This document shows positions 13,901-58,479 of a stretch of DNA of 64,000 nt, one piece after another. The stretch's first letter is position 1. Every line of letters starts with the position of its first letter. Under the pieces are notes generated by a model. It saw only the letters and a list, made by a program, of their open reading frames with translations, searched no databases and was not told the origin of the DNA. Position numbers and translations under genes: made by a program. The stretch is from Capitulum mitella (taxonomy: Eukaryota > Arthropoda > Thecostraca > Pollicipedomorpha > Pollicipedidae), in assembly GCA_030062745.1 (NCBI GenBank), contig CP099848.1, forward strand, positions 23,190,378 through 23,254,377. Direction: 5' to 3'.

Positions 13901-16900
13901 TTTCTGTTCTTTTTTGTGATTGATTTGCTCTTTGCATGTCCGGCGCGCCAAGACAGCTGTGCGTACAAATGACGTGTGTGTGGGTGTGACATGCCAACAG
14001 GCGTGTGTCACATGCCTGTTGCCCAATTGCCGGCTGTGTTCTGCCAGGCGTTCGGCGCGCTGGGCCGGCGCATGCCCTCCGAGCACTACCCCGAGTACCT
14101 GAGCCCGCCGGACGACGAGGCGCACCGCGCGGCGCCGGACGAGCCGTCGGACGAGGACGAGCCGAACGAGGACGAGCCGGACGAGGCGGCGGCCGGCCGG
14201 CGGTCCGGCCCTGCGGCGGCCGGCGACGGCGGCGAGCCGCCCGGACGGCTTCGGCAAGAGGAAGCTCTCGACCGACTCGAGCTCGCGTGGTAAGGCCGGC
14301 GACGCCTCGCTGGATGCTTTCTCCGCCGCAGCTGGCGCGGATGTTTTGTCGAGAAAGAAGGTTTTTTGGGGTTCCGTTTCAGTCAGTCAACCAATTAGTC
14401 ATGTACTTCAGAAACATATCCGTGGTATGGTTTTTCGATTTTCCGCGTGAGAAACAATAGTAAAAGCACAGTGACATGCGCAACATGCAGCTAAAATACA
14501 CACGTCACAATTCCTTAGTCAGCCTGTGTTTTAGAATAGCGAAACTGGGCGAGTTTCTGATACTTAAATTTCCTATTTTTTATTATTTATTTTCATTCGT
14601 TTTTTTTGTTTTATATACCTCCTTGTAAGCTTTTGGTTGTAAGCCCACTTTGAAAGACGTCGTAGTGATAGATGCCACCCCTTTCGAGCGCTGATAGCCT
14701 TCAGGAAATAAGCGACTTTTAACGGCTTCCACTTGTGTTGACTGTAGCCAAATGGTGACACGTCAGGTGTTCAGATCCCTCAGAAGTTTGGCATTTATGT
14801 CCATAGAATGCAATGGCTATGACTGATTTGCGTCTTCATGAATGCACTATAACTCTTACTGTAAGGAGTGGATTTTGTCACGGAAGTACAAGGGAGTGAA
14901 ATGAAGGCAAATTTTACGGGATGTGATAACCGATATCTTGTCCACTGTCTCCATCCCTCAGCTGTCCCATGAACTGCAGCATGAGATCTTAGTGCACTGC
15001 TTACCGTGTTTCTGTTTTCCTTTCAGAAGCCCCAATGAAAGTGACGCGTTTCGCGGATACCCCTGAGTCGGAAGACGTTTCCCAGCAGCCTGCTGACGGC
15101 ACTCCACACACCACGTCACACGTGGACGGCAGCACTACCGCCACGCCGGCCGACACGGAGAACTCGAACTTCTCCGAGTCGCACGCAGATGGCACCACCA
15201 GCTGCTCGGAACCGCACCGCGAGGACGCCAGTCACGGCACTTCGCTGATGACCGAGCAGACGGACGACACCGATCTGTCGTATCAGAAGCCCAGGAAACG
15301 ACGGAAGACGAGGCGCGGACGCAAGCTCCACGTGCTGCAGACGGAGGACACGGAATTGCTGGGAATTCAGATCATGCCTCTGTAAGTGGATTTGATGAGT
15401 TGCCATTTTCTGGAAACAAAGCGAGGTTTGCTGTTTATCTTGGTGCCCCTGGCTCTTTCGACAATGCAGATTAGTACAGATTGAATGTGCCGAAAAATCC
15501 GAACCCATTCATTACATGAGAAGTGTTTTTCGTCCAAATTCACATTCTATGAGATTATGAGAACAACTGCATGTTAGTTTCCTTTTACACGTGTAATACG
15601 GCTTATGAAAAATCGGATATTCCGCAGTGTAGTGTTAGTACGAAAACGATTTTTGATGCAACGGACAACGTTCGCAAATTTCTCATGTTCGTTCCGTCGT
15701 ATAGGATTGCGCTCCGCGTGTGTCATGTTTTTCGTAGTGACCTATTGTTTTCTGTTTGTGAATGCCGCCGTACAGTCACGCATTTGGTTGCATCAGTCCA
15801 CATATATTCTGTATTTTGTGGTCCGCATCGGGAAAGGAAGAGCCCTTCCTGCTCCCTGTCGTCTTTCTCCTGGCCTCTATCGTCTCTGGCCCGTCCCGAT
15901 CTGTCGTCTGCCGACTCCCGCCTCCTACTGCCCTCTGCCCGCCCGGGGTCTGCCGCTGACGCTGGGCGCCGCGCCAGGTCGGAGTGGAGCCGGTACCGGG
16001 AACAGTACCGGGCGCTGCAGAAGGAGAACATGTCGGCCGTGAAGCGGACGCTGCGCGAGGAGGCCGCCCGGCGGCCGCCCGCCGAGCCGGTGAGTCGGCC
16101 GTCTCGGGACGGCTCTGGCGGCCGGCGGGGGTCTGCGCTCCGGTGACGTCACCGGTCACGGCCTGCTGTCGTCGGACGGGCGCTGCCAGGCTCACTCGTA
16201 TTCGGTTTTCTGCCACTTGCAAGTGATGAAATTGGCCGGGAATGTAAACGATGTTTTGAGTTGCCTGCAGAATGTCTAGACGGCTGTTAGCGTATGCTGC
16301 TTGTCCTCTGTCTGGCCCGTGAATGTCTAGACAGACCGTTAGTGTATGCTGCGCTCTGTCTGGCCAATTTTCCGGTGTCTGATGTGAGCCGCCGGCCTGC
16401 CCTGGGTGTTCTCTGCTCGACCCTGTGATCCTGTCTGGCCTGACCTGACCCCGTCTCGGCCCGCCGCAGCGGCCGGCGGCCGGCGCCCCGCAGTTCGTCG
16501 CCTCCACGGTCGTCCGTTTCACTGCGGTCCGCACCGGCGCCACTGACAAACAGATGGTGGTGAGTGCCCGCCGCCGGCGCGGCCAGTGAAGCTCAGGTCG
16601 ACAGAGCAGTGTTCGGATTGGTTTGCCCCGTCACACTCTTGGCTCTTGCGGCGTGACACTGTTAAAGTTGTTTGGATAATGGACTCGTCACGGCTTTCGT
16701 GGGTTTTGTGTCCGGTCAAATACACATGTCAGTTTTATCGCGTGCGTCGCCGTGCACTGTTTTGCAGTGACGTAGGTTTACGCGCTCCGCAGGAGAGCCT
16801 GAAGCAGAGGCCGGGCGTTTTGTACGTCGAGCTTTGCTGGGAGTCAGGAGTGGGCTACCTGCGATTTGACTCGGCAAGCGCAGCTGCCAGCTGCCTGACT

Positions 16901-17470
16901 TCAGACCTCAAAGATGCGGCTCTCCTACAAGGTAGGAGTCGTTGCTCGGACTTTGACCTCTTCGTGCCGTTTTGTAGGGAGCCCGAATCTCTGGTTCACC
17001 TAGTCATTTTCGCGTCTGTATTGGCGTCGTGTGCGTTGATGACGGGCTGCGTGATCTGTTCTGAATTGGTTGTTCACGTTCGGCTCGCGTGGACCCGTGC
17101 AGACATTCATGTTTATTGCTACGAGTCTTTCGGGGCGTTTGTATTGTATTTTATTGTATTTACAAATGTAATGCAATGCAAACGCCGTTTTGTTTGAGGG
17201 ATTCTTTGATGCCGAAGTAAAGCGAAGATACTTCAGCGAAATCTGGATGGCCCGTGCGTGCGTTTGGGTGAGAGCCCGCAGTACCAAATTAAGTTGGGGC
17301 TATATACGAGACCCGTCGTCGCAGGTGAGGAGGAGCTCGAATACTGGAGGCGTCTGCTGGCTGAAAGGGAACGGACCAGGAGGCGGGTGGGACGCCGACG
17401 CTCGGAACGGGGCAGGGACAAACTGCTACGCCGTCTCAAGCTCAAGTCGACCACCACCAGCGAACAGTGA
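10764..17470 (+). CDS. LARP7: La-related protein 7 (7SK snRNP component), 9 exons
   Basis: LARP7 binds the 3' end of 7SK RNA and holds the 7SK snRNP that sequesters P-TEFb; it acts in the nucleus. Nine exons, about 526 aa if one suspect base in exon 4 is ignored (human about 580 aa). The La motif spans the first two exons (KLYSLILNQMEFYFSNSSLT, YVSISEFMTFKKIKAL). The RRM is in exon 3 (RGFGFVEF as RNP1), followed by an acidic linker, a charged Ser/Thr-rich segment, SEWSRYREQYRALQKENM, and a C-terminal xRRM (QFVASTVVRFTAV, GVLYVELCWESGVGYLRF, LEYWRRLLAERER) with a basic tail. All junctions are GT-AG and in phase except at exon 4. The start at 10764 gives only a short leader before the La motif; other LARP7 proteins are longer there. 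The first two introns are CpG-poor. Confidence 0.93.
10915..12008 (+). other. LARP7 intron 1, CpG-poor
   Basis: Canonical GT-AG intron with very few CpGs and an excess of TG/CA. It contains diffuse GAATTG/CAGTTCTG-like repetition (11250-11600) similar in style to 8290-8640. No exon is seen. Confidence 0.75.
12009..12190 (+). CDS. LARP7: LARP7 exon 2 (La motif, second half)
   Basis: Acceptor TTTTTTCAG, donor GTGAGT. Joining to exon 1 gives DKYVSISEFMTFKKIKAL, the conserved La-motif core, then SPFTVKEDAELCTIYV, the start of the first RRM strand. Confidence 0.9.
12769..12870. repeat. Dispersed repeat copy 2 in LARP7 intron 2
   Basis: Partner of the 9338-9480 repeat in the same orientation. It lies in the CpG-poor part of LARP7 intron 2, so the element family seems concentrated in CpG-poor DNA. 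Confidence 0.55.
13425..13589 (+). CDS. LARP7: LARP7 exon 3 (RRM1)
   Basis: 55 codons in phase 0. Encodes ENIPRSSVGEALRRTFSAYG, TIDYVSLPAHRATGQH and RGFGFVEFRTPNMAHNALQ: most of a canonical RRM with RNP1 RGFGFVEF. Donor GTCGGT. Confidence 0.92.
14048..14289 (+). CDS. LARP7: LARP7 exon 4 (acidic linker, frame break)
   Basis: Opens in phase 0 as AFGALGRRMPSEHYPEYLSP, then a Glu/Asp-Pro-rich linker. Read straight through, the 242-nt exon joins exon 5 as TGA. In the next frame its end reads DGFGKRKLSTDSSSR and joins exon 5 as REAPMKVTRF. A one-base surplus (or two-base loss) inside the GC-rich part is the simplest explanation. Confidence 0.75.
15027..15381 (+). CDS. LARP7: LARP7 exon 5 (Ser/Thr/Asp-rich linker)
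   Basis: Acceptor TTTCCTTTCAG, donor GTAAGT. Encodes APMKVTRFADTPESEDVSQQ, a long low-complexity polar stretch, the basic patch RKRRKTRRGRKLH (likely nuclear localisation or RNA contact), and LLGIQIMPL before the conserved SEW helix of exon 6. Confidence 0.88.
15978..16089 (+). CDS. LARP7: LARP7 exon 6
   Basis: Joins exon 5 in phase 2 to give MPLSEWSRYREQYRALQKEN, then MSAVKRTLREEAARRPPAEP. This matches the conserved PEWLELRNEYLKLQKASM region before the xRRM. Donor GTGAGT. Confidence 0.9.
16470..16559 (+). CDS. LARP7: LARP7 exon 7 (xRRM start)
   Basis: 30 codons in phase 0. Encodes APQFVASTVVRFTAV and RTGATDKQMV, matching the first strand and helix of the xRRM. Acceptor CCGCCGCAG, donor GTGAGT. 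Confidence 0.88.
16793..16931 (+). CDS. LARP7: LARP7 exon 8 (xRRM core)
   Basis: Encodes ESLKQRPGVLYVELCWESG, VGYLRFDSASAAASCL and DLKDAALLQ. It contains the YVEL and YLRF strands of the xRRM and ends in phase 1 at donor GTAGGA. Confidence 0.9.
17325..17470 (+). CDS. LARP7: LARP7 exon 9 (xRRM helix 3 and C-terminus)
   Basis: Encodes GEEELEYWRRLLAERERTRR and a basic tail ending in KLKSTTTSEQ and TGA. The EYWRRLLAERE segment corresponds to the extra C-terminal helix that defines the xRRM. The final beta strand (KLEIL in human) is not obvious before this exon; a short exon or an upstream acceptor may be missing from my model. Confidence 0.87.
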
Positions 17471-19465
17471 GGAGCGAGGTAATGTTGTGTCTTCCGTCGG
17501 CTGGTGCTCCGGCGGTGGAAGTGAACCGTCCTGTTTTGTTTGTATGAGCTACGCATTTCTTTGTAATACATGCGGCAAAATGAAGAGTGTGTCATCAATA
17601 GTTGCCGTGGTTATCAGTGATCTGACGACTTGGTTTTGTGGTGGGCGTCACTGTGTCTTGTTGGGCTGCCTCGCACGCATAGTATCAAAAGAAATCCTGA
17701 ATCGGCTCGGCGAAATCCGAACTAAGTTTAGGTAAGATATACAGGTTAGGTAAGCTCAGCTTTCCACGTTTTTGACGCTCTTACCTTTCATGTGGCCCTT
17801 GGATATGCGATGTCGACTTTTTCTTCGGCGCCGAGAAATAACTCCGTATACCTACAAGGCTCAGTGGTGAGGTACAGTTCGGTACTAATGTATTGACACG
17901 GACGTGCTGACAAAGTAACACACCGAGAACGTCGCACCGTCATAAATGGCTCGCAGCAAGGACATTAACTATCAACTAATTACGGCCATTTTTTACATGG
18001 GACCAACGATCTCGTTGCCAACTCTGTGGCCGAGAACAAGACGGTATGACAGGTTACTAGTCTTCTAAAAGCAACAGCAGTACCCCGCACTATGGCGTGT
18101 GGTAGTCGTGTAGGAAGCGTCAAACTCAGACAAGCACCACTGTTTAACTTTCCCAATCCACATGCCCAGGACCACTCAAACAACACTGCGAAACAAGTGC
18201 TCGCGCCTGTTGTGCCTCGAGACGGGAACAGACGCCACTGTTGTGCTTCTGGGCCGGCTCGAGCGCTCGATGCTGTTTCGCCGGCCTGATCGGTGCAGTT
18301 CAGTCGTCGGGTCCAAAATGATCGGGCCTGGGGAGACGACCTTAGACCTCTTATCATTTAGAAAACCGGAGGCTTAAAGGGCACTTTCTCGTATATTGGG
18401 CAAGTTGTCTTCGTACCATCGCGGAAATACTTCAGAGCAGATTTTTAACTTCGGTGCGTTGCCAAGTATTCGTCAACAGGTTGACACTGCATAACAGAAA
18501 AGCATACCGCTACACGGAATCCACGCTGCTACACTGCATTAGCAGCCTCCGAAAACATGGTTAGCCAAGGACAACACGGCCCTCCGTCCTGACGGCGGCA
18601 GGATCCGACCCACCTCCTGGGACGGGCCGACCGGGGCCGCGGCGGCCGCGGCATCGACTCGGCGCTGCTGGCCTCCGTGCTGGTCTGGCCGGAGAGCAGC
18701 TCGGCGGCCGCGGACCGCATGCTGGGCGAGCTGGCGCCGCCCTCCAGCCGGCTGGCCCGCTGACGCCAGGTCGACCTGCGTCAGGACGGCGCTCAGACGG
18801 GCACGTTGTGTGGGCAGGTCAAGTGGGGAGGGGATGGCGACGTCGTGTGGGCGGGTCGGAAAATGTTGGAGGGTTGAGTATCCAGACGGTTTCACGGACG
18901 CCGACCGATCAAGTGTCCTCCGTGAGTGGAGGTTTAGGAGGGGCGAGGCTCTCGAATCAGTGCCGGGGCCGGCCGTTCGGAGCTGGCGGCCCTGAGAAAA
19001 TCACTAGGGCTGTCAGCTCGCAGACCGTATATGTTCCCAGGGCAAAAAGCCGAGACGTTGTTCCGTGGCTGAGTTCTATACCCAGTTTTACGTTGGCCCG
19101 TGCTCTGGGGAGCAAAAGAGGGCCGTTTTCCTGAGCTGATTCCAGAGACCCGGGCCCTGGGATCGGCAGTTCACGAGCCGTGTAACACTACACCTCTATG
19201 GATGATGTCACGGGACGACAGCTAATGTTTAACGCAATTGTCTCCTGAGGTCGTGAAAGCGACTCCCCCCCCCCATCCAGCTGCCGCCCGAGCCCCACAC
19301 ACCCATACATACCCACAGCCCCATACAGCTGCCGCCTAAAGCTGTGAGAACCATAGCCCGTCATAGCTGCCGCCTGAGCTCATGATACGCAGATACTCTT
19401 CCAGCTGCCGCCAGAGGTCATGATACGCACAGACCCCCTCACCACCCGGCCGTTAGCCGACAGTA
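17471..19465. other. Convergent spacer between LARP7 and the first K2P gene
   Basis: The two genes end toward each other here. A GC-rich patch (about 18590-18765) has one open frame reading IDSALLASVLVWPESSSAAA and ending at a stop; an unassigned terminal exon is possible but unsupported. At 19270-19425 the word AGCTGCCGCC recurs five times. Confidence 0.55.
19270..19425. repeat. AGCTGCCGCC short interspersed repetition
   Basis: Five occurrences of AGCTGCCGCC at irregular 30-50 bp spacing with C/A-rich filler, just downstream of the K2P stop codon. This may be 3'UTR or spacer minisatellite. Confidence 0.6.
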
Positions 19466-20253
19466 CTACCTCCGAGGGCCGTATGGTGAGCTGGAGTGAC
19501 GATGGCGTCTGGACAGCGCCACCTGGTCGTCCCGCGGGGCGTCGATGACGCCGAAGGACCGTCCGATTCGGTAGAAGTGACTGTTTATGGTCTCCTTGGT
19601 CAGCTCGAAGGACATCTGCGTGACGGTGAGGCCGACCATGACGTAGAACACGTAGGACGTCTCCACCAGCCAGGCGGGCGTCGGGCCGTAGTTCGGAGTG
19701 TCGTCCTGCAGGATCTTGGGCACCAGGTCGCCGAAGCCGATGGTGGAGATGGTGATGAACGTGAAGTAGAAGCCCTCCAGGAACGACCACTGCTCGTAGT
19801 GCGCGAACAGCGCCGCTCCGATGGCGTTGTACACGGTGGTGATTGCGAACACGAGTGCCAGCGGCACCTTCAGATGCAGCCCGGACGGGTCGTCCATGGA
19901 GCGACGCCGGCCGTGGTGGCCCTCGCGGTCCGCCGCGGCGAGCGCCGGCTCCGGCGCCAGCTGCGCCATCCCGCCGCCAGGTGTCTCGCCGGTCGCCACG
20001 ATGGTCGGCACCGGCAGCCGGCCGTCCTGCGGGGGCGCGCCGGCGTCGTAGTCGGCCGCCATGCCCTGCTGGCCGTCCGCCGAGCGCAGGCTGCGCCACT
20101 TCTCCTGGGCGCGCTTGTACATGCCGTCCAGCAGGTGGCCGATGGAGCGGCCCAGCGTGCGCATGCAGAAGAGCATTAGCGGCACGCCCAGCATGGCGTA
20201 CAGCAGGGTGGCCAGGCGGCCCTGCCAGCTCTTCGGCGTCCTGTTGCCGTAGC
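19466..20253 (-). CDS. K2P (first gene) exon 3
   Basis: Acceptor GCTGGCAG, then GC TAC GGC completing GYG, followed by NRTPKSWQGRLATLLYAMLG, TM3, pore 2 TISTIGFGD and TM4, ending in TAG at 19466. The whole second half of the channel sits in one exon. Confidence 0.93.
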
Positions 20254-22645
20254 CTGCCAGCGGTTACGGCAGAACTGACAACGACCGCAGTGGTGTGATC
20301 GGAATAACAACATTGATAGGTAGGTTTTCTTTTCCTACACGAATAAAACGATCGTTCTGTGTTATACAAAGCCGACCTAGTGCGGTGCAAACTAATATGT
20401 CTTCGTTTGTGAGATCACGTCATGTGGAAACCTCAAGACAGTGAGAATCTAGGCCCTTCTTTATCCCCTTTGTCTCCAGCCGAACGCTGAATGACGATGA
20501 AAGGGGATTCAAAGTTGCAAAATAGATGAAATCTGAAATACGTGCTGTTGTCGCACAGAAAGAATACATATTACAGTTATCCAGCTTAGGCCATTAAATC
20601 GAGATTCAAATAAGTTGCTCTCTTTGTTTGGCATGTGAAGAATCTCCCGCGTCAAAATGATTTACAACGGTGAATCATCTCTTGAAAAATGATTATACGG
20701 TTGAGACGCTGCGTACGTCCTTTGTGCCATACCGATAGTTGTAACAACTGTTGTAGCAAACAGCAGCGAAGTTTTGAAGTCCCAGTCGCTCCCAACTTCT
20801 TGTTCCACTCTACAATTGTCCGTTTCCCTTCGCAAGTCCTCTAATTTATCTTCGTAGTCCTCGATGAGTTTTCTCGTCTTTAAAATCCATTCGTCAATTT
20901 TACTGCTATCGAAATCTTTGTCTTCGTTCAAGCTTTTCTTTACATGATGGATCAGCAGTTTTTCTGAAAAAAATAGGAAGCGTCTAGGACATGGTTATGT
21001 CAATAGTACGACAGCAGTGGTTCGTCTTGTGGTTTATCCATTGTTTTAGTGCTTTCGTTTGTGGAAACTGAAAATTTTTCTGGGAACTGACGATGGTATT
21101 ACCGACAGCCAAGTGGAGGCGGTATCATATCGTTCGGCTTTGGACCAGAAAATAACGTTTACTGCCGAATTTCTCAGCTGGGGAAGTAGGTCTGACCCAG
21201 TTCCACAGCACCCTTGCACGTCTCTTCAATCTTATGTACTTTCAGCTGAATGATTGGAACCGGAACCCCATTTAAGGTTGTGCGATATATATATATATAC
21301 ATCATGCACACATTTCTGGCCACTAGGAGAAAGATGACAGGAATCATTTAAAATTATGGGCTTTTCCATTCCAACTCTTTCAAGTTTCGTTACGGACGCG
21401 TTTTTTTCTATTGCTTGCCCCCCCGTTTGATGTTTTCCGTATATGTTCTATAAAGACACAGAAATGATGCTTTGGAACGGACATTCAAATTTGTCGCTTT
21501 TCATACACACTAGTTCTACGAGTTCATAGCGACACTGCTTAAACACATTTCAGTTTATCCCGACCCGTTTACACTAACACATTTAGGGCAGCATATCGCA
21601 CATCGCATATCGCACTAAAATTTTGAAATGCAAGGCGGAAAAAATACGGGGACCAATGTGCGTCTAAGTGAATGCTGTCTTTCACGTTTAAGACAAATAA
21701 AGCCTCGCATCAAAAACCACTTCATTTGTGTTTAATATGCCTAACTCGCAGTGCCTGTATGTATGACCTCAAACAGGTACTGCAAGGTGCAAACAAAAAT
21801 AGTGAAAATCCTCACTCCTCACTATGGTGTAGCTCTACATTCGTCTGTGTTCTCGTTACCTGTTATGAATAGACCTTTCTTATTTGGTCGATGTCTGCTT
21901 GGACCCGGTCCCTGTCGCTGCCATTAGCGCTTAAGCTGTCGGGAGGTTTATTGGGGAAGTGCCTTCCACTGCACTTCTGACCCTGAAAAGTGGCTAGAAC
22001 TGCCACCAGTTGTAGAAATGATGAAGTCATCTCTTATTTTGCAAAATAATGGCGGACTCAATACGTTGTTTCCAGGCTCGCAGCCAGGATTTTCTTAAGG
22101 GGGGGGGGGCGGAGTTCAGTGTGAATTGAAACCATACGAAACAGCCTGCTGGGAAGACGATGCGCAATGGTTTTCGCAATAAACGCGGGTCTAACGGGGG
22201 GGGGGAGGCGGGCCTCGAACCCCCTTGGCTTCGCCTGTGGTTATTTCCCTAATGGCATTTTTCTGGAAAATTGAATGCTGCAGTGGTCGTTTGAGTTTGA
22301 GTTTTCTACCTAAAATATCGAATGAATAAATCCGCTGGGCAGTTTTCATGCTGATCTTTACATACCTGTAACGTTGTATAAATTTTTCAGCAGAGCTGTC
22401 CTGTTATTTAATGTATAATTATTCATTTCTTCCAAGCACGGTGATGAGTCTTTCGTGAACTGTTTCTGATGTAGTGCTCTGTTTTCGAGGTATTGAAATG
22501 TGAACGCACCAACAATACAGTATCCCATGATAAGGAGTACCATTCCCAAGTAGATAAATACGTGGGATACCAGCCATTTTAATGTGTTTCTACCCTCCAA
22601 CTTCTTGTAGACCCATGAACTCAGACCAGAGGAATTTTCGTCCAT
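19466..22645 (-). CDS. Two-pore-domain potassium channel (K2P), complete, 3 exons
   Basis: Background K+ leak channel of the plasma membrane. Three exons on the minus strand (22645-22366, 20963-20733, 20253-19466) join in phase 1 and phase 1 to give 432 aa. TM1 is about residues 24-50 (WLVSHVFIYLGMVLLIMGYC). A TM1-P1 cap follows with glycosylation sites NYT, NRT and NVT and an acidic/basic helix. Pore 1 is FATTVVTTIGYG, with the GYG codons rebuilt exactly across intron 2. TM2 is about 186-205, then a cytosolic linker, TM3 (VPLALVFAITTVYNAIGAAL), pore 2 FITISTIGFGD (about 343-346), and TM4 (YVFYVMVGLTVTQMSF). Both selectivity filters are intact. The C-tail is short and basic (RRHRHSSSPYGPRR). 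I cannot assign a subfamily. It faces a paralogous gene at 32.4 kb in head-to-head orientation. Confidence 0.93.
20733..20963 (-). CDS. K2P (first gene) exon 2
   Basis: Acceptor TATTTTTTTCAG. Encodes the cap helix region (KIDEWILKTRKLIEDYEDKL) and the start of pore 1 (SLLFATTVVTTI), ending in phase 1 inside the filter glycine codon at donor GTATGG. Confidence 0.92.
22076..22245 (+). repeat. Dispersed poly-G element, copy 1
   Basis: Begins CAGCCAGGATTTTCTTAAGG, has an internal GCCTGCTG and a GACGATG.GCAATGGTTTT segment, and ends with a long G run and CCCCCTTGGCT. A second copy is at 53006-53171 in the same orientation. It lies inside intron 1 of the first K2P gene (upstream of exon 2). It looks like a short non-autonomous element; family unknown. 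Confidence 0.75.
22366..22645 (-). CDS. K2P (first gene) exon 1
   Basis: ATG at 22645 in a good context (AAACATGGAC). Encodes MDENSSGLSSWVYKKLEG, TM1, then FQYLENRALHQKQF and NNYTLNNRTALLKNLYNVT. Ends in phase 1 at donor GTATGT. Confidence 0.92.
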
Positions 22646-25600
22646 GTTTGTGCGGTGGATCGAGACGTCGCGTCAGAATTTTATGTACGTATAATTTTCG
22701 TTCACTCGGAGACCACTGTTGTCCAGAACGTTCACCCAGCCTTATTAAAAGTGTCTCAGAACGTTTCAGAAGAACAAACAAAATGACATAAAATAAGTCA
22801 AAGAGTCTGTTAACTATCTTAAATGCCGCAAAATTTTCACTATTGCCCACGCCTGCTTTTCCGACAGAAAAAAGACTAACCGTACGTGCTACGCTTTCAA
22901 GGATCCTCCATTACTGCACTCTTGAGGGTGAGCGCAAAACGGCGCAACGGCATAAAAATCATGCACTTTGCTATCGAATTATATTTTCCACTGGACATCA
23001 CCTCGTTTGAAAATGATTCACTTACTTTGCATCGAACGGTCAAAAGACTGGCAGGGATATGAGGACTTTAGCCGGTTTTTATCCATGCAGCGCCCATAGC
23101 GTTACATTCGGTAAAAATTACAGTTTGTGTGCTCCCCAGACACGTTTTTGGTGACGGCCATCTTTGTAGTTACATACACTCTTTGAGCTCGGCCTGTTCA
23201 CTTAAGCTGATCAATTTCATTACGAAAACCACGAAGGTGTGCACATTTCACAATCATTTCAGAAATGATCATTATATCCATGCAGAAGAGTGGGTAGTTT
23301 TTTTATCCCTCAAAATCTGTCGTGACATGTGATCCACACGTAGGCACTTTTCTTTTACGACCAATAACAGCTGCTAAATCGAGGCATTCGCGAGCGTTGG
23401 ACTTTGCTTGATGTGTTGTGCACGGAGGCATGGATAGCGCGATGACATGATAGTCTAGGCCATGTTAAGTCAGACATCCCACTGCTAGCTACGAGCCAGC
23501 CAGTTCGCCTTTGAAGATCGCACAGAGACAGTGTGCAAGCCCTTCCATCAGACAAAAGACTCAGCGACACGGTGATAACAGACCAGATGGGTCGGCGCAC
23601 CGGGTGTTGATAGTCTGCTAGACGACGTTATTGACAGGACATCGACTGCGCTGCCTGCCGATGCTATTCGACAGTATGAGAATGGTTTCGTTTTCGTCCT
23701 GCGAATCCTGCCTGTCTCAGCTTCATAAATTCACCCCCAAAAAAAAACAAGTTTCCTTTGACTGAACAATTTTCAAAGCCTGAAACATCGTCTGTCCCGG
23801 CTAACCAGCACGTACAATGCTTTCCGAACTATGAAGTGAACTATGAAACTATGAAAACTATGAAGCATTAGAAAATTATGTTCTTCGGCAATAGCGGACC
23901 TCCACACGGGCTCAGCCGGACTTTCGTTTCGCCCACGTCTGCTTCACCGTAGGCAAACGAAGGGGCACGTTCTGACCCCAATACTCCATCCGCCACGGAA
24001 GCCACGTGCTCTCGAGGTTGACCGACACACACTCGTAGTCGAAACGACGTGCGCCTGCCAGTGCCGCGCAAACCCAAGAAACAATGGGGAGGGGCGTTGA
24101 CACACTTTTGGGATATTCCTACTGCGCAGCCCCGCAGATCGTGTCCTTATCGATGGGAGGGAGAGTAATGGCTGCCCGCCACTCCAGAATCCGCTGCCGC
24201 CGCCCATCCCCCGTCCCGGATGATCCCCGCTGATTCTGGCCAAGGACTCGCCGTTGTTTTACTTCGCAAAACACGCACCGAAGCGCAGCGGAAGCATGCT
24301 ATGAATTTTTAGTTCCGAGCACACCAGTCACCATATGTTCCGCTTACATAGAGCATTCCTTTCAGCCTCCTCCAATTACATCACCCACGTTAAGTGCAAA
24401 AGAATAATGGATGAAAAGTGCCAAAATATTTTGGACGATTGGAAGCTTTTTTGGCGCACTCGCAGCAAATTTCCATTGGAGTCATCCCAGACAGTCCGCT
24501 AAGTCCAGACAGTCCGCTAAGCTAAGCAAGACTGGTCATATGCATTTTGTATGAAATCAGCCATTTGAACTTTTTAACAGCCTGATCGCCGGAGAATTAT
24601 CCCTGGCGTCAGTTGCTAGGGAGAAGCATTCTGTCTTCAACAGATCGTGCAACTGGTGCGTGCTTCCAACGAAACATGATAAAAGGTTTAGAATACAGAG
24701 AAAATCAATTTGGCAAGCGAAAACAAAACAAAAGGGGATAACTAATTATTGCAGAGAGGTACTCGCCACTAATGTTTCATCTTGGTAAACCTGAAATAGC
24801 GACCTTCCTTTTTGACGTCGTGTCGTAGGGGCAAGTAATAATATTACATTTACTAAAAGTGGCACGCTGTTGAATGCTTCTGTAATGAACTTCCTTTCCC
24901 TAAAAATGCATGAGGTACCATTCATGTATTATCCATACCATCCATATATGTTGTCTACGCTGTGGCCGATGCCACAGCTCATGATCCTGAACGCATTCAC
25001 AAATGGCAAATGTATGTTTGCTATACAGGAGCGCTGTAACTTCTTGGCATGAATAGATGAGCTGGCATGCGGTTGAATCGAATGGCCTCTTGAAGTCCTC
25101 ACATAGAAATGCAACAGATGGTAATGTGACATAGCTGCAGATATGTGATCTTTGGGATTCTGAAGACTTGGAATCCAGTTTGGACCAAACCGGCTGAAAT
25201 GCGGTGGTCAAAGATTAATCTGCGTCATTATTGAAATCGGGAGACGTTTCAGGAGGATATCTACGAATGTCGGCGTAAAGAGCCGTGGTATTGGAGACTG
25301 GAGTGCGGGTGAAGCCAGGGTTTCCATAGAACCAGACAGCATCAGACATGCCGTTGCTCATGACTCTTGAGTGGACACAGAAAAATCGGACGTGGATGAG
25401 GATCAGTGGCGTCAACCGTGCGGCCGCTCGGCAACAAGTCGTAGGAATCAGGAATCAGGCTATCAGAATCCGCACGACACGTGCACTGCTCATCGCGAGG
25501 TCTGATTCCAAGACAACCCAGCGAAACATTCGGACCGAATTTGCATAAAATACGTCCTCTTTCAAGGGCTTCAGTCGTTTCGCCGGCGCGACTTATCGGC

Positions 25601-32437: not shown

Positions 32438-32678
32438 ATGCCGGGCGGCCGGCGGCGGCGAGACGACGGCCGCCTGGCGGCCTGCTGCGGCCTGCTGTTC
32501 TCCCAGGCTGGCCTCTGCGGCCTGGTGGTCGGGTACGCGGTGGCCGGCGCGCTCCTCTTCAGCTTCCTGGAGGGCCGCGCCGCCCGGCAGCAGGGCCGGC
32601 AGCAGCCGGTCCCGGACAGCGCGGCGGCCATCGCCGGCCTGAGAGCGGCCTGCCTCGACCGCCTCTGGAACATCACCG
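32438..32678 (+). CDS. Second K2P exon 1 (TM1 and cap)
   Basis: ATG at 32438 opens MPGGRRRRDDGRLAACCGLL; TM1 follows, then FLEGRAARQQGRQQPV and LRAACLDRLWNIT. Ends in phase 1 at donor GTCAGT. The frame stays open past this donor to 32938 through the donor array, so longer forms ending at 32711, 32744, 32777, 32843 or 32876 would also be in phase 1. Confidence 0.83.
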
Positions 32679-35600
32679 GTCAGTGCCTCCGCCACATTCC
32701 CGACGTCACTGGTGAGTGCTTCGACCGCCTCTGGAACATCACCGGTCAGTGCCTCCGCCACATGCCCGACGTCACTGGTGAGTGCTTCGACCGCCTCTGG
32801 AACATCACCGGCCAGTGCCTCCGCCAGATTCCTGACGTCACTGGTGAGGGTCTCGACCGCCTCTGTGGTGTCACGGGTGAATTCCTTAGGCTCCTGTGGA
32901 ACATGTTCGGTGAGTTGCGGATCGACCACCATCTCTGAGATGCACTGAGCGTCTGAACCCTCGATCATCTCTCCAGCGCCACTGGTGAGTGCCGCGACCG
33001 CCTCTGGAACAAAGCACTGATGAGTGTCTCTCCTGCCTTAGGAGCATAACTAGCCAGCACTGGCTGGCATGTAGGGAACTGGGTATTGAGACACACTGTG
33101 CCCGGTGATATCAAGGAAGCCTTTGGCCCGTAGTGCATATGAACGTATTCACGGCGGTTATATGAATATAAACTGTCCTTTCGGTGGCTGTGGGACTTTG
33201 ACCTCAGTGTTTTGGGTTCCAATGTGAAGTACGGCCGCAAACGTAAACGCTGAAACTTGTATTAAGCCTGTTCGCGACGTTCTCACCAAATGATACCAAG
33301 GACTTTGCTCTGAATAAGGCCAGGCACATTCCGCGAAGAAAAGCACGAATTATCATAGGCAAGACAGGAACACTGAACATCGATTATGACAATATCTAGG
33401 CTACTGATAGCTGGCTGGGACTCAGGACGAATCCATCTATTTCCCTTTATCATCCTTAGCCCAGCGGATATTCTTCCGAGGCTTTCCAAGCTGCTGGGAG
33501 GGACAAGGTTGGCGTCAAGGTGTCCACTTGCCTCGGTTCCGTGGCGACTGGCCGAGCGACCCGTCTTGTGTAGCGTCATTTCCAAATGGCCTCGGGTCCG
33601 AAAGGTGATGGTGATTCCGTCCGCCATGTCTGATTTAAGCGCGCCGACTCTGCGCGGCAAACCCCAGCTCCGAGCCAAATTCAGAACGGATGAGAATGTC
33701 TGGCGCGGAGCAGTCGGACAAAGTGTGCTAATGCCCGTAATTCTGCTGACCTCCGATCAATACCGCGGGAAGCGCTCTGGGCAGTGCGCCTTACCGCCCC
33801 GAGGACAATGCAGACGCGCTGGCATTCAGAACTTTTGTCGCGACCATTGCAGAGGTCAGCGGTTCTGGTGACCTGCGGTCGGCGCGTCGCCCGGGCACGC
33901 TGCTCTGCTGCTGACGCCGCCTCTGTTCAGTGGCGGACACGTCGCACACAGTCCACTGGCCGACGGTCCTCGGTCTGTGGACCACGCTGACGGCACTGTC
34001 TGACTTTTAGCGACCGGTGCGCGGTGACACCAACGGCTGGCTGACGGTCCACGGCCGGTGGTGTGGACTGAGAGGGGGTGGTGACGGAAAAGCAGGCTGG
34101 CGGTTTACGGCAATCCTTGAAGAATTTCTGCATTGGAGGGTTAGGCCTGAGAAGAAGAAATCTAACTTTACTCCGATACGTCAACTGCCCACTGGATTTC
34201 GAGCAGTTTAGTTTCCTACACCTGACAAAAACAGATTTTGAGAAATGTTTTAATTACGTTAGAACTACAGTACATGAGATGCGTTTACAGCAGTTTCTCA
34301 TGTTTATGACATGGTAAAGCGCAATATCATTGTGAGACATAAGCGTGAGTTATGGGCTGTCGAAACACCGGCGAAATGCCAGGGTATTGATGTGGAATGA
34401 AGGCGGTTCAGAAAAGTCTGCGGTTAGCGGAGTTGTTTTGGAGAAAATTATTCTTGAATAACTGTTTTGGCCGCGTACTCTTTATGATACATGTTGTTCG
34501 GCGAAACGAGCTAAATTTGTCATTCACTGGCAGCGAAACATGGATTTGCTGAAGGGCTGGTTGTCACAACTGCTTCCTCGCCCTGGCCGTCCCGGAGTAA
34601 ATTTAAACTAAGAGAGGGGCTCCAGCTCCCTAAGCCCCCTTGCACTCGCCTCTGCTTAATTCCAAAGTAGAGACATTCGCGCGAACTCCTAAATGCCGAT
34701 CCAGCGGCTTGCAGCAGGCTCAAATGACGATGTGTATAAGAGAAACTATGGGACATCCACCGGCATCTCCGCATACGCGGCTTTTCTGCGGATGGAGAAA
34801 CGACGCGTTTTTAGCCGCTGTTTCTGTTACGTAAGCAGACAGCGGGCGCCATTTTTCGGTCTGACCGAGACTCGGCACAAGCCAGTATTCCATCGAACCG
34901 GTCAACATCCATGTTGCAGTTACGTTTTCTCGTGCTCCAAGATCATCTGCGAACTCTCGGGCGGGTGGAGATCCTCCCAGTTCGGAGATGTCACTGGCAC
35001 CACAGTACTGCGCATGGCATCTGACAACCAATTCCTCATAGGCTGGATCACATTATACGAGATAACGTGTCGTTTCCATTTTTCCCCAGCGCAGTGGATA
35101 ATGCACAGCCACTTCAACAGCCAAGATTTTCTCGTAGGAAGGATTTTTGAGGAACTTCCGTGGCTTCCTCAAGTGGTCTCGGAGACCTTTCTAAAACACC
35201 CTGAAACGGCCTCAAAGGGGCCCCGGGACCTCCTCGAAAACGCTTCCGAGGCCTTTGTGAAGAAACCCGTTGGAAGTCCTCGAAAGGACCTTCGAGACGT
35301 TTCCCAAGAGACGTTCGGGCTTCCCCGAAGAAGCCTTCGATGCCTGCGAGGCCCTCCCGAGAGACCTCAGCAGCGTCCGAAACGGCCCCCGAGGCCTGCT
35401 GGAGGCCTCCGAAACCTGCCTGTGGGAGATCTCTTCGAGAGACCCTTCGGAAGCCAGAATCCAGCTATAAAAAGCCCCATTGACTTCTTTTGCCACCATC
35501 AACTGAAGGGGTGATGGAGTGTCCGATGGCGGTCCTCGGATTCTCCGCGACGGGGGTCTGCCGGGCCCGAGGGCGTGCGGCGCAGGACCCATCCCCACCT

Positions 35601-37477
35601 CCTTACCTGGCTACGTCGCTGACCCTGAGTCATGAGAAAACATCCAAAGGAAACCCGAAATGCCACTACATATCACATTGGTACCTAAGAGGACACGCAG
35701 TGTACACGGGGCCATTTGCGATGGGCGTCCTATAAAGGGGACGCAGGTAAAGAAAGCGAATTTTCGGGAAAGCGTCATAGCAATCGAATCGGCACTGAGT
35801 GGTAGTTGCATTCGTGAAGAAGTCCGAAGAAGGGCGTAGTTTCATTTCTTCGAACTCCATGTTCTCTTCAAGACAATGTCATAATTCTTCAAAGCATTTG
35901 ACTTCCATGCCACTTAGACCACAATTGATAGAGATCCAGGGCTCAGTTTAGTATGACTACTTTTTCTGGCTATCCTCTTACTTCTCATCCGGAAACGCGG
36001 GTATACAATTTATTTTGCAACTATTTTAAATGCGGCTATTTTGTTGTCATTTGTGGTACGTCGGTCATAAATGTTAATTAAACTAAGTTATATTAAATAA
36101 TAAATTGCATTGCAGATTGAACCTAAATGTCATTACTTCACACGTCTAAGATAAACGCATTTGAAACCAAATAATGAATATTCATAAGTGACTCAGGGAA
36201 CCTCAAACGACGAGGAAATGGTCTATTATATGTCATTAAATGTCTATTAAATGGCTATTATATGTCTCGCAACTATTGGCTTCTTCAATATGAGGGTTGA
36301 ACTTGGAAACTGGCTCTGCGGAGGTGGTGGACTAAGCCTGCCTTATCAGGGTATCACGGAATTTCCAGTCGATGCAAGGCCATACAAAGCACTTATCGAA
36401 CAATCTTCATTCGATAGGGAAGCTATTTCGGCAGCGGCTTTTTAACTTTCGGGGTCTCGTTCCCTTCATTTGTCGTACGACCCCTTTAAAGCGCAACAGC
36501 ACAAACAACACGGGGCTTGCATTGTTTGTCTAGGTTATTTATTAGATTTAATAGATTATTTTTCCAGATTATTAATTACGAGAAGATTAAATGAGGTTTA
36601 ATTAAGCTTTAAATGGGGTATATCACACCCTTTCAGTTAATGAGGAGGAGGGCGAGGAGCATTTTTCCTTCGAAAGCCTCAAGATCAAATGATCCGATTT
36701 CAGTGGCTCAAATGGCAGTCGATAGCCTGGTACCCCGCCGTCCAGGATGCTCCCCATTTGTTAACCTCAAGGTCACCGAGACGTTACGGGTCAAATCGAA
36801 ACCCTAAATTTCATGATTGTTTATGTTTATATGGACCACTTTATAAAACAGGTTAGCAGGACCATTATCGATTTGGTGCTTACGCTGTTGTGCGCAGACA
36901 CCGCTCCACTGCAGACCCTACTGTCCACAGGCACCGTTCCACTGCTAACCCTACTGTCCACAAGCACCGTTCCACTGCCGACCCTACTGTCCACAGGCAC
37001 CGTTCCATTGCTGACCCTTCTGTCCACAGGCACCGCTCCACCGCTGACCCTGCTGTCCACAGACACCGTTCCACTGCTGACCAAGCCGTCCACAGGCACC
37101 ACTCCACTGCTGACCCAGCTGTCCACAGACACCGCTCCACTGCTGGCCCAGCTATCCACAGGCACCGCTCCATTGCTGACCCTGCTGCCCAGCCAGCACT
37201 CCACTGCTGAGCCTGCCGTCCGGAGACACCGTTCCACTGCTGAGCCTGCTGTCCAGAGGCACCGTTCCACTGCTGAGCCTGCTGGCGCTATTGTCCGCAG
37301 TCAGCGCCCCAGTGCTGCGGCGGCAGAACTGGACCCAGCTGGCCGGCCGCCACCTGCGACAGCTGGAGGACGGCATCCTGGAGTTGGTGGCGGCCCGGCC
37401 GGCGGCCAACCTCCGGCCGCTGCACTGGACGTTCGGCTCGGCTCTGCTCTACTCCGTCTCCGTCATCACCACTGTCG
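32438..37477 (+). CDS. Second K2P channel gene, first two exons only
   Basis: Paralogue of the K2P gene at 19.5-22.6 kb, on the opposite strand. Exon 1 (32438-32678) encodes a short basic N-terminus, TM1 (LCGLVVGYAVAGALLFSFLE) and a cap segment ending DRLWNIT. Exon 2 (37301-37477) encodes RRQNWTQLAGRHLRQLEDGI and pore 1 up to YSVSVITTVG. Both introns are phase 1 at the same places as in the paralogue (after N-[VI]-T, and inside the filter glycine). The third exon (GYG completion, TM2-TM4, pore 2) is not visible between 37478 and the window end. The gene is therefore partial here: it may continue across a very long intron, be truncated, or be misassembled. Both splice sites of intron 1 are embedded in tandem arrays. 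Confidence 0.85.
32651..32900 (+). repeat. Tandem 5' splice-site array (33-nt period) at K2P exon 1 end
   Basis: Donor-like sites recur exactly every 33 nt with exon ends at 32678 (GTCAGT), 32711 (GTGAGT), 32744 (GTCAGT), 32777 (GTGAGT), 32810 (GCCAGT, a GC site), 32843 (GTGAGG) and 32876 (GTGAAT). They alternate between two 33-nt unit types, so the full period is 66 nt. The frame is open and encodes GQCLRHIPDVT and GECFDRLWNIT alternately, one Cys per unit in the clean copies, with NIT glycosylation sites. Confidence 0.92.
32901..36891 (+). other. Second K2P intron 1 interior
   Basis: No additional exon recognised. The stretch 35140-35465 is a degenerate CCTCGAGA/GAGGCCTTCG-type repetition rich in short palindromes that keeps a frame open without resembling a protein. 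The remainder is AT-richer unique sequence. Confidence 0.55.
35140..35465. repeat. Quasi-periodic GAGGCCTTCGAG-like repetition
   Basis: Short words such as CCTCGAAA, TTCGAGA, GAGGCC and CTTCCG recur at roughly 10-20 bp intervals, giving many small palindromes. The open frame through it (Glu/Pro/Arg-rich) is probably compositional. Confidence 0.55.
36892..37300 (+). repeat. Tandem 3' splice-site array (33-bp period) before K2P exon 2
   Basis: About twelve 33-bp units. Each contains CTGAC or CTAAC (branch-point-like), a C/T-rich stretch and GTCCACAG followed by GC/AC. The functional acceptor TTGTCCGCAG at 37300 is a diverged last unit. Acceptors after 37200 (exon starts 37226, 37259, 37301) share the exon 2 frame; an irregular unit near 37190 shifts the earlier ones by one base. 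Confidence 0.92.
37301..37477 (+). CDS. Second K2P exon 2 (cap and pore 1)
   Basis: Begins in phase 1 after TTGTCCGCAG. Encodes VSAPVLRRQNWTQLAGRHLR, QLEDGILELVAARPA and LHWTFGSALLYSVSVITTV, ending inside the filter Gly codon at GTGGGT. The pore helix and TTVG match the first K2P gene (TTIG). Confidence 0.87.
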
Positions 37478-40400
37478 GTGGGTGAACACTTCGGGCCGGC
37501 GGATTTGGCCACTGATTTTGGTGCCGGAGGACGGTACCTTGGCTTTGCACTCACGCCGGCGCTAGTTTGCTCGAGAGAAGTAGGATGTGAATTTGCAACA
37601 TGCGCAGTTCTACGACATGAATGTGCAACGTGCATAATTCAACGGCGTGAGTGCGGAACATGTGTAATCCACTGCATGCATGTGGAATTTTCAAGTCATG
37701 TGGTATATTGCAATGCAAGCTACCGGTGGAGCTGGAAAATTTACGGCTAAGGTGACAGATGTTTCGGATTAATCAGCAATGGCCACACGTAACTGAGTAC
37801 TTTCATAGCGTGCGCGATTATGTGTGCGCGCACTTTTATTCAGATGACGATCGGAGATGTTCACGCATGTGCGTTGGAGGTAAGTGCAAGACTATGTCCG
37901 ATTTGCGTGTTTGTTTATTTTCGTGTGAACATGCTACCCTGGCACCCGGTACGGAAAAATGTTCCTAAGGCGCCACCCTCACACGAAAGTGCCGGTGGAA
38001 CAAAAACAACGAAGCTTCTTCCATTGTGCCGCGCGGGAAGTCCGACTGTCACCGTCCCCAACGGGCCGGTCACGCCAACGCTCCGGCGTCAACCGAGCGA
38101 AGTCTTTCCTCCGCGCTGCAAAAGTCCATGAGCACCGCCAAAGAAGCGTAATACCTCGCCAAACGGGCCGCCGATAGGACAGGACGCGTTTCGCCTGCTC
38201 GTGCTGCAAGCTTCAGCAGGGGCATGCTTTTCGCCGTGGGACACGCGAGGCTGCACGTTAAATCAAGGCTGCGGCTGGCCGCGCGCCGTCCTTTCGCCGG
38301 GCTCTTGTGTCGCGCTGGAGGGTCTGTATCAAAGACGGACGTGCCGCCGTCATTGTTCGGCACAGTTGGTCACCTGTCCTCAGCGGCGCATGATGGAGAT
38401 TGTAAAAGAGGGAGGCCGGACTCCGTTCGGGAGTTTATTGACATTGCTCCCAGATTTTTTTCTTTGTGCCATTGTAAAATGACAAATGTGCTCTGCTAGG
38501 AGGGGCCCGAAGCCCGACTGGGTGCGCCTGACTGTCACCATGCGATGACTCTGCACAGTGTTTACGATGCCCGATGCCTTGGTGGGTTCCACTTTGACCT
38601 CTTAGAGATTTCCAAAGTCCTGATCTGTCGTGTACTACCAAGTTAATGTGCACTATAATAGATCATAGTGTTGGTGGTAAAGTGTGCTATAGAAAACGAG
38701 GACCATGATCACTGTGCTTGTTTAACCACAAAGTTCGTCACTGCTTGTTTCCTGTACATTTTGGATCATGTTTCGTTTTATTCTACACTTTTTGATTATC
38801 TGTTATTTATCGACTTTATTACGTTCCTTATTCTTGTCAGTCACTTAAATCGATAATCCTGGTTTGTGGTGTTTTCTTGCCTAGTAAGAGCATCTGATCA
38901 GACGTCACAGTGCTGCGGAGGGGTCTTCATAACGTGATGGAATGCTCCGTGCTCGATTCACTCCATGCGGAAATTTCCACTATCACGCGGGTGCCGCGAC
39001 CACAGAATTAGAGTCAGACAGGAATTCGTCATCCTGCTTAAGCATCAAAACGATCGCAGGTTTGCTATCAGGGACTTTTTCTGAAACTCGGCATCCTTGT
39101 AGGAGTTATGCCTTCCATCTTCGGAAGACATTGGGGATACAGATGTCGGCCAGTTCCAAGCCGACAGCGTGGTCAACGACACACTGGCGTTCCACGTTCT
39201 TCCGAGACTTGAATGATGAAAAATACAAAGAAGCTTCAAGAATTTTCAGTTGTTGATCTGCAACATTCAAGATTCTCGGTCGTGGTTTCTCAGTTGGGGA
39301 TTCACGGCAATTTCCAATGTCTCACATAGCGCAACATTTCTGTGACGCCAAATTACCGATGCCTTTCGTAAAACAGCGTTAAAAGTAAGGTTTCTGGCTT
39401 TTGGAGACGGCAGCCCCATATTTATGGCGAGCCATCTGATTGCCTGCACTGGACCGCACGTGAGACGTAGCTTTGTTCAGGGGGCTAGACGTCTGGTTGT
39501 AAAATGACGAAACTTGGGCCACAAGTTCCCGGCAGCTTGAGCGAGAGCATCTCATTTGATCATCATCTGGTTGACGATGCCCTGAGTTGTAGCACTTCTG
39601 TCGGGGTGCCTTTGCGCCGGCTAGAGAAATTCTTAATGCGCTCATGTAAATCCGTCGAAATTTTAGATTTAGTCACTTTGTTTCACCTGCCGAAGCAGCG
39701 CTTCCCATGAAACACTCAATTTTCTACCCAACAAAATATTTTCAGACTCAACAGAGTTCAGTATTCACTGAACGGGTCCGACATATCTGCCCTTCACTCT
39801 TCAAGGTGTGACATTTCTCTGATTGTCTACGCCCGGTGGCTTTGCCATTGCACATCGCCGTCATAGATTACACATCGGCGTCAGCGTTCGGCGTGCTGGC
39901 CGCCGCTTGTCCATCGCCGAGTGGTCGCGTCTGAGACCGCGTCAGGCGCCGGCGGCCGACACGCCGCCGTTCCCACGTGAATCGCCGGCTTCCCACGGTC
40001 GTGATCCGGCGGCCGGCTCCCGCCGCCGCCGGCCGGCTCGGTTTCTCCGCTCCACTTTGCGTTCGCCGCGCGTGCCGCCGTCGTCCGCGACGGGAACGGC
40101 GACGTCAGGCCCGGGCGGCCGCCGCCGGCGCCGGCGTCCAGCGGATGTCACATCGACATCGGAACGTTGACACTGACTCGGTCTTTTAAAACCGCCGAAC
40201 GCAAGGCAAGTCCGACAGTCGGCTCTGTTTTCTTAGGTACGCTTCGATTGTGGCGCGGCGGTTATATTCGTGGCGTTGTCAAGAAGATTTTAAATGACGA
40301 TTTTTAAAAACGTCGTAATATTTTGAAATGTCGCCGGGTTTGAAATACTTCACTTCCTTTCTAGTGGAGTTGTGGGATTATGCCTCTTTGTGGGCAAGGC

Positions 40401-46285: not shown

Positions 46286-47769
46286 TGACTCAAAACTCGT
46301 CCAATGTATGCTGACTCAAAACATTGGACGAGTCCAGCAGGCCCAGCGACGGTGACCGTTGTCCGGTCTCCACCGAGGAAAACTATCGAGTCATCGAGGT
46401 CCGGGGAACCAGAACTCGGTCGCCATGGTGACTGCCGTCGTCTGGTGAGAAATCACTCCGTTAATTCATGATTATTGCTCGTAAATTTCGTGGGATTTTA
46501 GAACATAAACGGGGCTTTGAGGGTATATCGTGATATGTGTCCTAGGATGATATATGATAGTTACATGGGCATGTTCCGTGGTAAGGCACAAGCGCGATTT
46601 TGTTCCTTTTTGGCGCTGAAAACTTATGTCCAATGGAATCTTGGGTGAATAATGAGCCACAACTATTCTTTTGACAGCTGTGAACAAATAAAACACATTG
46701 GGTACCATGACTGGGGATTACCGGCCATTGCCAAGCTTCCTAGCATGCAACATGCTGTTGTAATTTGTCCATTGTCTGGAGATCAACCGACTTCAGTACG
46801 GTCCCTTGGTCGTCACTCGTTTAGGACCCTATTCTCCTGAAATCCGAAACGAAGCAGTGCCTCTACGCCCACTCGCACCCTTGCCTGCAAAGTAGATGTG
46901 GTCATGGAGCCAAGCAGGACGGGATAAAAGGCCGCCGTTATAAAAATGGACCGTAAAATTCCTCATAAAGTAGCATGATGTCACCATAGCAGCATAGCGG
47001 AATACCATACCTTCATTCAAGCGATTCTGGAGCAAACTTGTGGTGCTGAAGTTGGTTGGCAACAAAGGCATTCGACACGTCGTCTCTCGTTGACTGAGAA
47101 AGAGACTTATCATTAATAAGAAACGTAGAACAGACTTGGTCCAGCTGCGTGTTATGAATCGTCACGTGACGCAGTTGGTAGGGCTAAGTCTTGGGACGTT
47201 GTCTTCTTCGGAAGAATTCGCACTAGTTGCGACGAACATCACTTCAAACGCAATGACGGACATCAGAAACTTATCGGCGACCTTTGATCACGATTATCAA
47301 ATGGTTCCTGGAACGGCCTAACGACTAAACAACTAAACAACGGAGCTGTAGAAGATCCGGAAATTGATTGCTCGGCTATGCTGCTATTGTACAATGACAA
47401 CCATGTGACCTGTGTGGAAATTTCGTACCGTGTAGCGAGTCGGTTAACACGAGCACTGAAAGGGGGTCTTTTTGTGTCCCCGGCCTGTTTTTCTTGAATA
47501 TCTCAAAAACAGACTGGAGCTGGTTGTTGCAACTTTGTGACATTTATGATGTTTGAATAACTCGTCGATTGACGCAGAAAAGTCGAAAATTGGCCGAAAA
47601 TGTTGCAAGTTTTAAGCATTTGAAGTCAAACAAACATAACGAAAAAAACGGTTGCCGCTGACGAATGGGAACGTTGTGAAAGGACTAGCGTTCTATCTAG
47701 GATTATCGTTTGAACACAATAACGCGACGTCATTCGGGCATAAGTGATGGATGTACCAAGACCAAAGCC

Positions 47770-48200
47770 AGGGTCAATAAGGGTCAAAATCATCAAAGGT
47801 CAAGGTCAACCAGGTTGTGGCCTGATCCAGATTGGCTTTGCAACATGTCGGTTTGTATGGAATATGCATTCAAAGATCCTAATAAAAACACGTGTGCGCA
47901 CACTGATACGTTTGCATATGCCAGGGTCAGTGAAGGCCAAGGTCATCAAAAGTCAAGATCAGATATCTTGTGACCTGGTCCAGATTTGCTTTGCGACATG
48001 TCGATTTGTATGAAATATGCATTCAAAGACCCTAATAAAACACGTGTGCACACATGGATACGATTACATATACCACGGTCATTTCAGGTCAAGGTCATCG
48101 AAGGTCAAGGTCAAATATTTTGTGACCTGGTCCATATTTGCTTTGCAATATGTCGATTTGTATGAAACATGCATTCAAAAACCCTACTTAAAACACGTTT
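47770..48200. repeat. ~153-bp satellite, three monomers, with AGGTCA motifs
   Basis: Three head-to-tail copies start near 47787, 47940 and 48092. Shared blocks are GGTCATCAAAGGTCAAGGTC, TGTGACCTGGTCCA, GCTTTGC, ACATGTCGATTTGTATG, AATATGCATTCAAAGACCC and AAAACACGTGTGCACACA. Each monomer contains AGGTCA half-sites, several as TCAAGGTCA. No coding potential is convincing. Confidence 0.9.
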
Positions 48201-58470: not shown

Positions 58471-58479
58471 CCGAGACAC

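Follow-up and report, generated by a model that had tools for sequence, protein, structure and literature searches.

A K2P channel gene and its relatives

The window, by which we mean the whole 64,000-nt stretch analysed (C10:23190378–23254377), belongs to a 477-Mb assembly of the Capitulum mitella genome comprising 16 contigs. The DNA beyond its downstream end was also read (locus L003), and coordinates there are given relative to the window. The focal gene lies on the forward strand. Its exon 1 (32438–32678) opens with an ATG at 32438 and spans 241 nt, or 80 codons plus one nucleotide; in translation it encodes the first transmembrane segment (TM1) and the first part of the extracellular cap, and it ends in WNIT|G in phase 1. 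The TM1 segment aligns with residues 34–62 of TRAAK, a match that is weak by itself. Exon 2 (37301–37477, forward strand) starts with VSAPVLRRQNWT, ends with the ITTVG of pore 1 and is in phase 1 at both ends; it covers positions 22–40 of PF07885 at 15.8–17.1 bits, below the cut-off of 22.5 bits. It is followed by the intron 2 donor (TCG|GTGGGT, at 37478–37483 on the forward strand), which is array-free by Tandem Repeats Finder (TRF), and by an intron of 33 kb (37478 to 70848, window-relative). Exon 3 (GYGPVAP...) begins at window-relative 70849 and the second pore is encoded at window-relative 71798–72217 in L003 (~71.8–72.2 kb), the later exons of the gene lying some 7–8 kb beyond the window end.

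Judged from its sequence, the gene that bears the donor array described below is a K2P channel, as the first-pass annotation of the window had proposed. The PF07885 profile matches twice past the window (C10:23261225–23261338, 32.1 bits; 23262346–23262573, 32.8 bits), both times above the cut-off and with no stops, which gives the gene the two pores of the family. Additionally, it has the order TM1, cap and pore 1 with conserved junctions, and the TTxG|YG intron position is found in other K2P members. Searches for tRNA genes and Rfam families at default thresholds gave zero matches. The second pore filter of the gene reads TIGGGD, which is unusual; in K2P channels this filter is usually GFG or GLG.

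A second, complete-looking K2P gene (19469–22645, reverse strand; PF07885 E-value 7.9e-28) stands head to head with the focal gene, the two starts being ~9.8 kb apart. Its exon 1 ends in NVT|G, in phase 1 and at the corresponding place. No arrays occur at its junctions, and TRF reports none with a score of at least 50 in 14239–24487. The closest paralogue among seven exon-2 regions compared (three of which, L081, L083 and L085, gave no readable exon 2) is L080 at C1:34.18 Mb, whose exon 2 is 54% identical and has the same phase-1 start. This paralogue carries no arrays at the three of three junctions seen, with L041 taken as its exon 3 on the basis of position; the 40 kb upstream did not reveal its exon 1. 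If L041 is indeed its exon 3, as position suggests, intron 2 of the paralogue is ~78 kb long and array-free. Upstream of the paralogue's exon 2, TTAGG-like repeats with a 191-bp unit in 1.9 copies lie at C1:34183344–34183701 (L086), a motif in keeping with an arthropod genome.

A minisatellite repeats the exon 1 donor in frame

The end of exon 1 is covered by a minisatellite (32651–32914, forward strand) built of 33-nt units inside 66-nt double units, as seen by TRF and in a table of units. TRF itself reports 32651–32865, with 3.3 copies of the 66-bp double unit, 93% matches and a score of 374. The repeat starts at the exon end and has a donor in each unit: eight donor-like positions follow one another at 33-nt intervals (after 32678, 32711, 32744, 32777, 32810, 32843, 32876 and 32909), all in phase 1 and, on translation, with no stop in between. 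Seven of the eight carry GT, and 32810 carries GC (CCG|GCCAGT). The eighth position, after 32909, reads TTCG|GTGAGT and precedes a stop at 32936–32938. The first-pass annotation had listed seven donor sites, with 0 to 6 added modules. Their positions, single phase and freedom from stops are borne out by sequence and translation; six of them carry GT but 32810 is a GC site (-2.5 kcal/mol), and the position after 32909 had been missed, so that the range is 0 to 7. Beyond it the array continues as a decayed tail (32915–33010, end approximate, forward strand), in which the register is lost and stops occur, starting with the TGA at 32936–32938. The tail, which holds a further strong donor (CTG|GTGAGT) after 32984, was the second match of the donor array in a genome search.

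Donor choice would add 0 to 7 modules of 11 residues to the extracellular cap. As the first-pass annotation had placed them, the modules fall between TM1 and pore 1 and join the phase-1 exon 2 with the frame unchanged, a neutrality that follows from the 33-nt length of the unit. There is one cysteine in each of modules 1–6 (displaced in module 6) and none in module 7, and NIT occurs in modules 2 and 4. A single-sequence AlphaFold2 model of the read-through exon, of low confidence (mean pLDDT 69.3), places helices of 16–25 residues across the array, with starts 31, 22 and 24 residues apart.

The array itself is more than chance would give; its common phase and open frame, however, carry little information. 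The prior for a period that is a multiple of 3 is one in three, 6028 of 7383 random GC-rich 33-mers from the window remain open once repeated, and a stop would arise from just 24 of the 792 substitutions that the array allows. Selection deduced from the open frame was accordingly dropped as an uninformative argument. Among the three clean double units, three nonsynonymous and two synonymous sites differ, against 153:45 possible changes; no constraint is visible in these substitutions, though they are few.

U1 pairing and the probable ancestral donor

Splicing from 32678 yields NIT, nine residues and NWT, a spacing that matches two other K2P genes of the genome, L079 and L082, which are intronless (read-through) at that place. 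Because of this shared spacing, together with the phase-1 start of exon 2 in L080, 32678 is probably the ancestral donor position.

We computed the pairing energy of each 9-nt site with the U1 5' end and used 18 donors of PF07885 genes as the reference. From 32678 to 32909 the energies are, in order, -4.7, -8.7, -4.7, -8.7, -2.5, -8.6, -7.7 and -8.9 kcal/mol. The reference donors range from -5.8 to -11.0 kcal/mol, and 32678 is weaker than all 18. By the same measure 32711 and 32777 pair ordinarily, as do all the donors that add 1, 3, 5 or 7 modules. A general position weight matrix agrees with U1 (32678 at 6.3 vs 32711 at 10.1). A matrix derived from the 18 reference donors, in which the conserved TTIG codons bias the exon positions, scores 32678 (6.08) and 32711 (6.21) about alike and gives a high score only to 32909. 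Given the weak pairing of 32678 and the ordinary donors downstream of it, we predict that downstream donors are in use, above all those adding odd numbers of modules; U1 pairing thus predicts something other than the sole use of one donor, which the first-pass annotation had offered as the reason why a minisatellite might be tolerated.

Arrays at the acceptors of exons 2 and 3

Two further arrays, absent from the first-pass annotation, sit at acceptors of the focal gene. The one before exon 2 (36876–37300, forward strand) is made up of 13 units, which measure 33 bp except for one of 31 bp and the last, which has 9 extra bases; TRF gives 36877–37284, with 12.4 copies and 84% matches. CACAG is present in 7 of the 13 units, and a branch-like CTGAC, CTGAG, CTAAC or CCGAC in 10 of 13. 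The real acceptor would be the last, altered copy, at 37300. From acceptors at 37258, 37225 and 37192 the frame is open into exon 2, adding 14, 25 and 36 residues, respectively. The acceptor at 36964 is in frame but runs into stops, and the remaining upstream AGs listed cause frameshifts.

The array before exon 3 (C10:23260701–23261239, window-relative 70324–70862, in L003) has a 56-bp unit in 9.7 copies with 92% matches. It presents eleven consecutive CAG|GGT acceptors, the last of which is the presumed acceptor of exon 3, and each copy carries the opening bases of exon 3, either exactly or in variant form. Its period is not divisible by 3, and all three upstream sites that were translated lead to a frameshift or a stop. 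In both acceptor arrays, therefore, most extra acceptors break the frame. The units repeat the splice site along with the exon bases that adjoin it. This is obvious for the donor and the exon 3 acceptor; at the exon 2 acceptor it is seen as a resemblance, the first 17 bases of exon 2 matching the array unit at 13. Docking of the donor and acceptor arrays of intron 1 by base pairing was considered and dropped, since it is no better than controls: the pairing is equalled or exceeded by 98 of 102 random segments and by 133 of 500 unit shuffles.

The focal gene also has a 33-bp array that lies away from mapped splice sites, with 21.6 copies at 58468–59179 in intron 2. Period 33 recurs at window-relative 93487 and 119931, making three such off-junction arrays in all. 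At 47768–48198 there is a 152-bp unit in 2.8 copies, rich in AAGGTCAAGGTCA.

Junction arrays in other channel genes

We surveyed 38 other PF07885 junctions systematically (20 acceptors and 18 donors, seven of the 38 placed by eye), including Kv-type and other PF07885 genes as well as K2P genes. Arrays touch the junction at two of them. In L071 (approximately 119–273 of the locus) the array includes the exon end and donor, with donors 79 and then 75 nt apart; in L049 (666–899 of the locus) 45-bp units reach the pyrimidine tract only, stopping 2 bases short of the exon. Another 30 loci, L011–L040, were screened for arrays by locus position: ten have an array overlapping locus positions 1300–2000, and eight of these were inspected (L012, L024, L026, L028, L031, L035, L040, and L018 via the overlapping L048; L011 and L036 were left out). 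Among these eight, the junction is touched in two, both outside the 38-junction count: L040 (1274–1440 of the locus, 57 bp) and L035 (1739–1983 of the locus, 71 bp). Both arrays take in an acceptor and exon start, and in L040 there is a stop inside the unit. The six arrays that contain exon bases, those of the focal gene included, have spacings of 33, 33, 56, 79 then 75 (L071), 57 and 71, three of them clearly divisible by 3.

Minisatellites cover 6.2% of a 144-kb contiguous stretch and 5.0% of the 95.5 kb of L011–L040. In intronic sequence flanking the 38 junctions coverage is 6.6%, with 4.7% in the first 10 intron bases and 10–11% at 50–400. No enrichment of arrays at these 38 junctions was seen, nor any peak at the junction, and junction arrays are about as frequent as random hits would be. 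Three arrays at three of the four junctions in the focal gene have a probability of 5.7e-4 at a base rate of 5.3%; given one junction array, the probability of two at the other three junctions is 0.008. At such values, a local factor may promote junction arrays in this gene. In a genome of many thousand genes, genes with three junction arrays should be expected somewhere by chance.

Origin and use of the arrays

We consider it probable that the minisatellites of the focal gene were born at splice junctions and are tolerated there, and that splicing at the donor array is leaky but stays in frame. Tandem duplications would have happened to take in a splice junction, giving rise to minisatellites at three junctions of this K2P gene, and slippage or unequal exchange would have enlarged them. 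Use of the exon-proximal copy leaves the K2P protein like that of related genes; selection would maintain that copy since the exon is needed, and the intronic copies would drift. At both acceptor arrays most of the upstream copies would disrupt the protein, and the exon-proximal acceptor should therefore dominate. In the donor array, the frame-neutral 33-nt unit, the weakness of 32678 and the normal copy 33 nt downstream together point to leaky in-frame splicing, which would yield channels whose cap is longer by 0 to 7 modules of 11 residues, in most cases by 1 or 3. The number of modules would then be tolerated variation and not a regulated device. The predicted ranking of the donors rests on U1 pairing and the general matrix. 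The likeliest view of the arrays, in sum, is that they are by-products of a genome rich in repeats and are tolerated. The first-pass annotation had offered two readings, a length-variable cap and a minisatellite born from a splice junction. The latter fits better because the acceptor arrays mostly break the frame, other channel genes have junction arrays and the substitutions, few as they are, show no constraint; the former is without direct support.

It seems unlikely that the donor array is a working device in which splice choice sets the length of the K2P cap in 11-residue steps, altering disulphides and glycosylation. Such a device would account for phase 1 at all eight positions (seven with GT), for ordinary U1 energies at the donors that add 1, 3, 5 or 7 modules, for the cysteines of modules 1–6 and the NIT of modules 2 and 4, and for the helices modelled over the array (mean pLDDT 69.3). 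Phase and open frame kept over eight units while the tail decayed are likewise what selection would predict. However, the 33-nt unit already leads one to expect frame neutrality, the substitutions (3 nonsynonymous and 2 synonymous sites vs 153:45) bear no sign of constraint, the closest paralogue compared (L080) is array-free at the three junctions seen, and the acceptor arrays of the focal gene mostly lose the frame. We are just as doubtful of a more elaborate form, in which the gene has arrays at three junctions and its donor array acts as a cap length dial, with donor strengths arranged so that 1, 3, 5 or 7 modules beat 0, 2 or 4, and in which changes of copy number between individuals alter the channel with the frame kept.

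Relaxed selection offers another route to the same pattern. A gene that is decaying or hardly expressed would accumulate merely unselected junction arrays, and the weakness of 32678 (below 18 of 18 references in U1 pairing), the odd TIGGGD filter of the second pore and the presence of arrays at three junctions all agree with this. The reading is nevertheless improbable: exons 1, 2 and 3 and the P2 exon are open, the first two introns are phase-compatible, and both downstream PF07885 matches (32.1 and 32.8 bits) are above the cut-off and stop-free. Least of all do we favour a role for the extra sites as a back-up or decoy that aids recognition of a weak donor and of the acceptor of the 33-kb intron. 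The canonical donor at 32678 is indeed weak and intron 2 is long (37478 to 70848, window-relative), but the paralogue's intron 2 of ~78 kb does without an array, if L041 is its exon 3, most upstream acceptor copies lead to frameshifts or stops, and the intron 1 arrays do not pair beyond controls (98/102 random segments; 133/500 shuffles). We regard this explanation as very improbable.

Relation to known splice-site repeats

Tandem alternative 5' and 3' splice sites of the GYNGYN and NAGNAG types lie 2–4 nt apart and are not minisatellites. They resemble the focal array in having close sites in series that make small in-frame changes; the focal array differs in its 33-nt spacing, its up to eight sites and the tandem duplication of the whole junction. 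A nearer likeness is found in the human gene IFI6 (6-16, G1P3), whose repeat unit is ~12 nt long. The IFI6 minisatellite reportedly supplies multiple splice donors, an account credited to Turri, Cuin and Porter, 1995, NAR 23:1854. Two downstream repeat units serve as donors there, and three mRNAs result (PMC4526556). In both genes a minisatellite at the exon end repeats the 5' splice site, making the downstream units potential donors. The focal unit differs in being 33 nt long and frame-neutral and in belonging to a K2P channel of another animal, with two acceptor arrays added and donor use that is predicted. As far as sequence goes, this is the same anatomy as that of IFI6, plus a larger, frame-neutral unit and the acceptor arrays. 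Intron gain via tandem genomic duplication of AGGT (PMC4974935, PMC3443670) is a process that likewise takes in splice signals; in the focal gene, by contrast, existing junctions have been multiplied and no new intron is seen. Within the available text of the open-licence literature on splice-site repeats, K2P splicing and the barnacle genome, K2P genes with tandem donors did not turn up.

Implications

The focal gene provides a natural test of spliceosome choice between nearly identical sites that follow one another. It alone offers eight donor positions in frame; thirteen acceptor units precede exon 2, seven of which retain CACAG intact, and exon 3 is preceded by eleven CAG|GGT acceptors. 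If the donors are not used, the gene would show how strictly the exon-proximal site is picked. If they are used, repeat expansion would alter the outer domain of an ion channel by whole modules, and minisatellite mutation would lead to protein novelty. The arrays at other channel exons suggest that the genome contains further replicates of this test. Should the length dial be true, junction minisatellites would repeatedly supply this genome with in-frame variation in its proteins.
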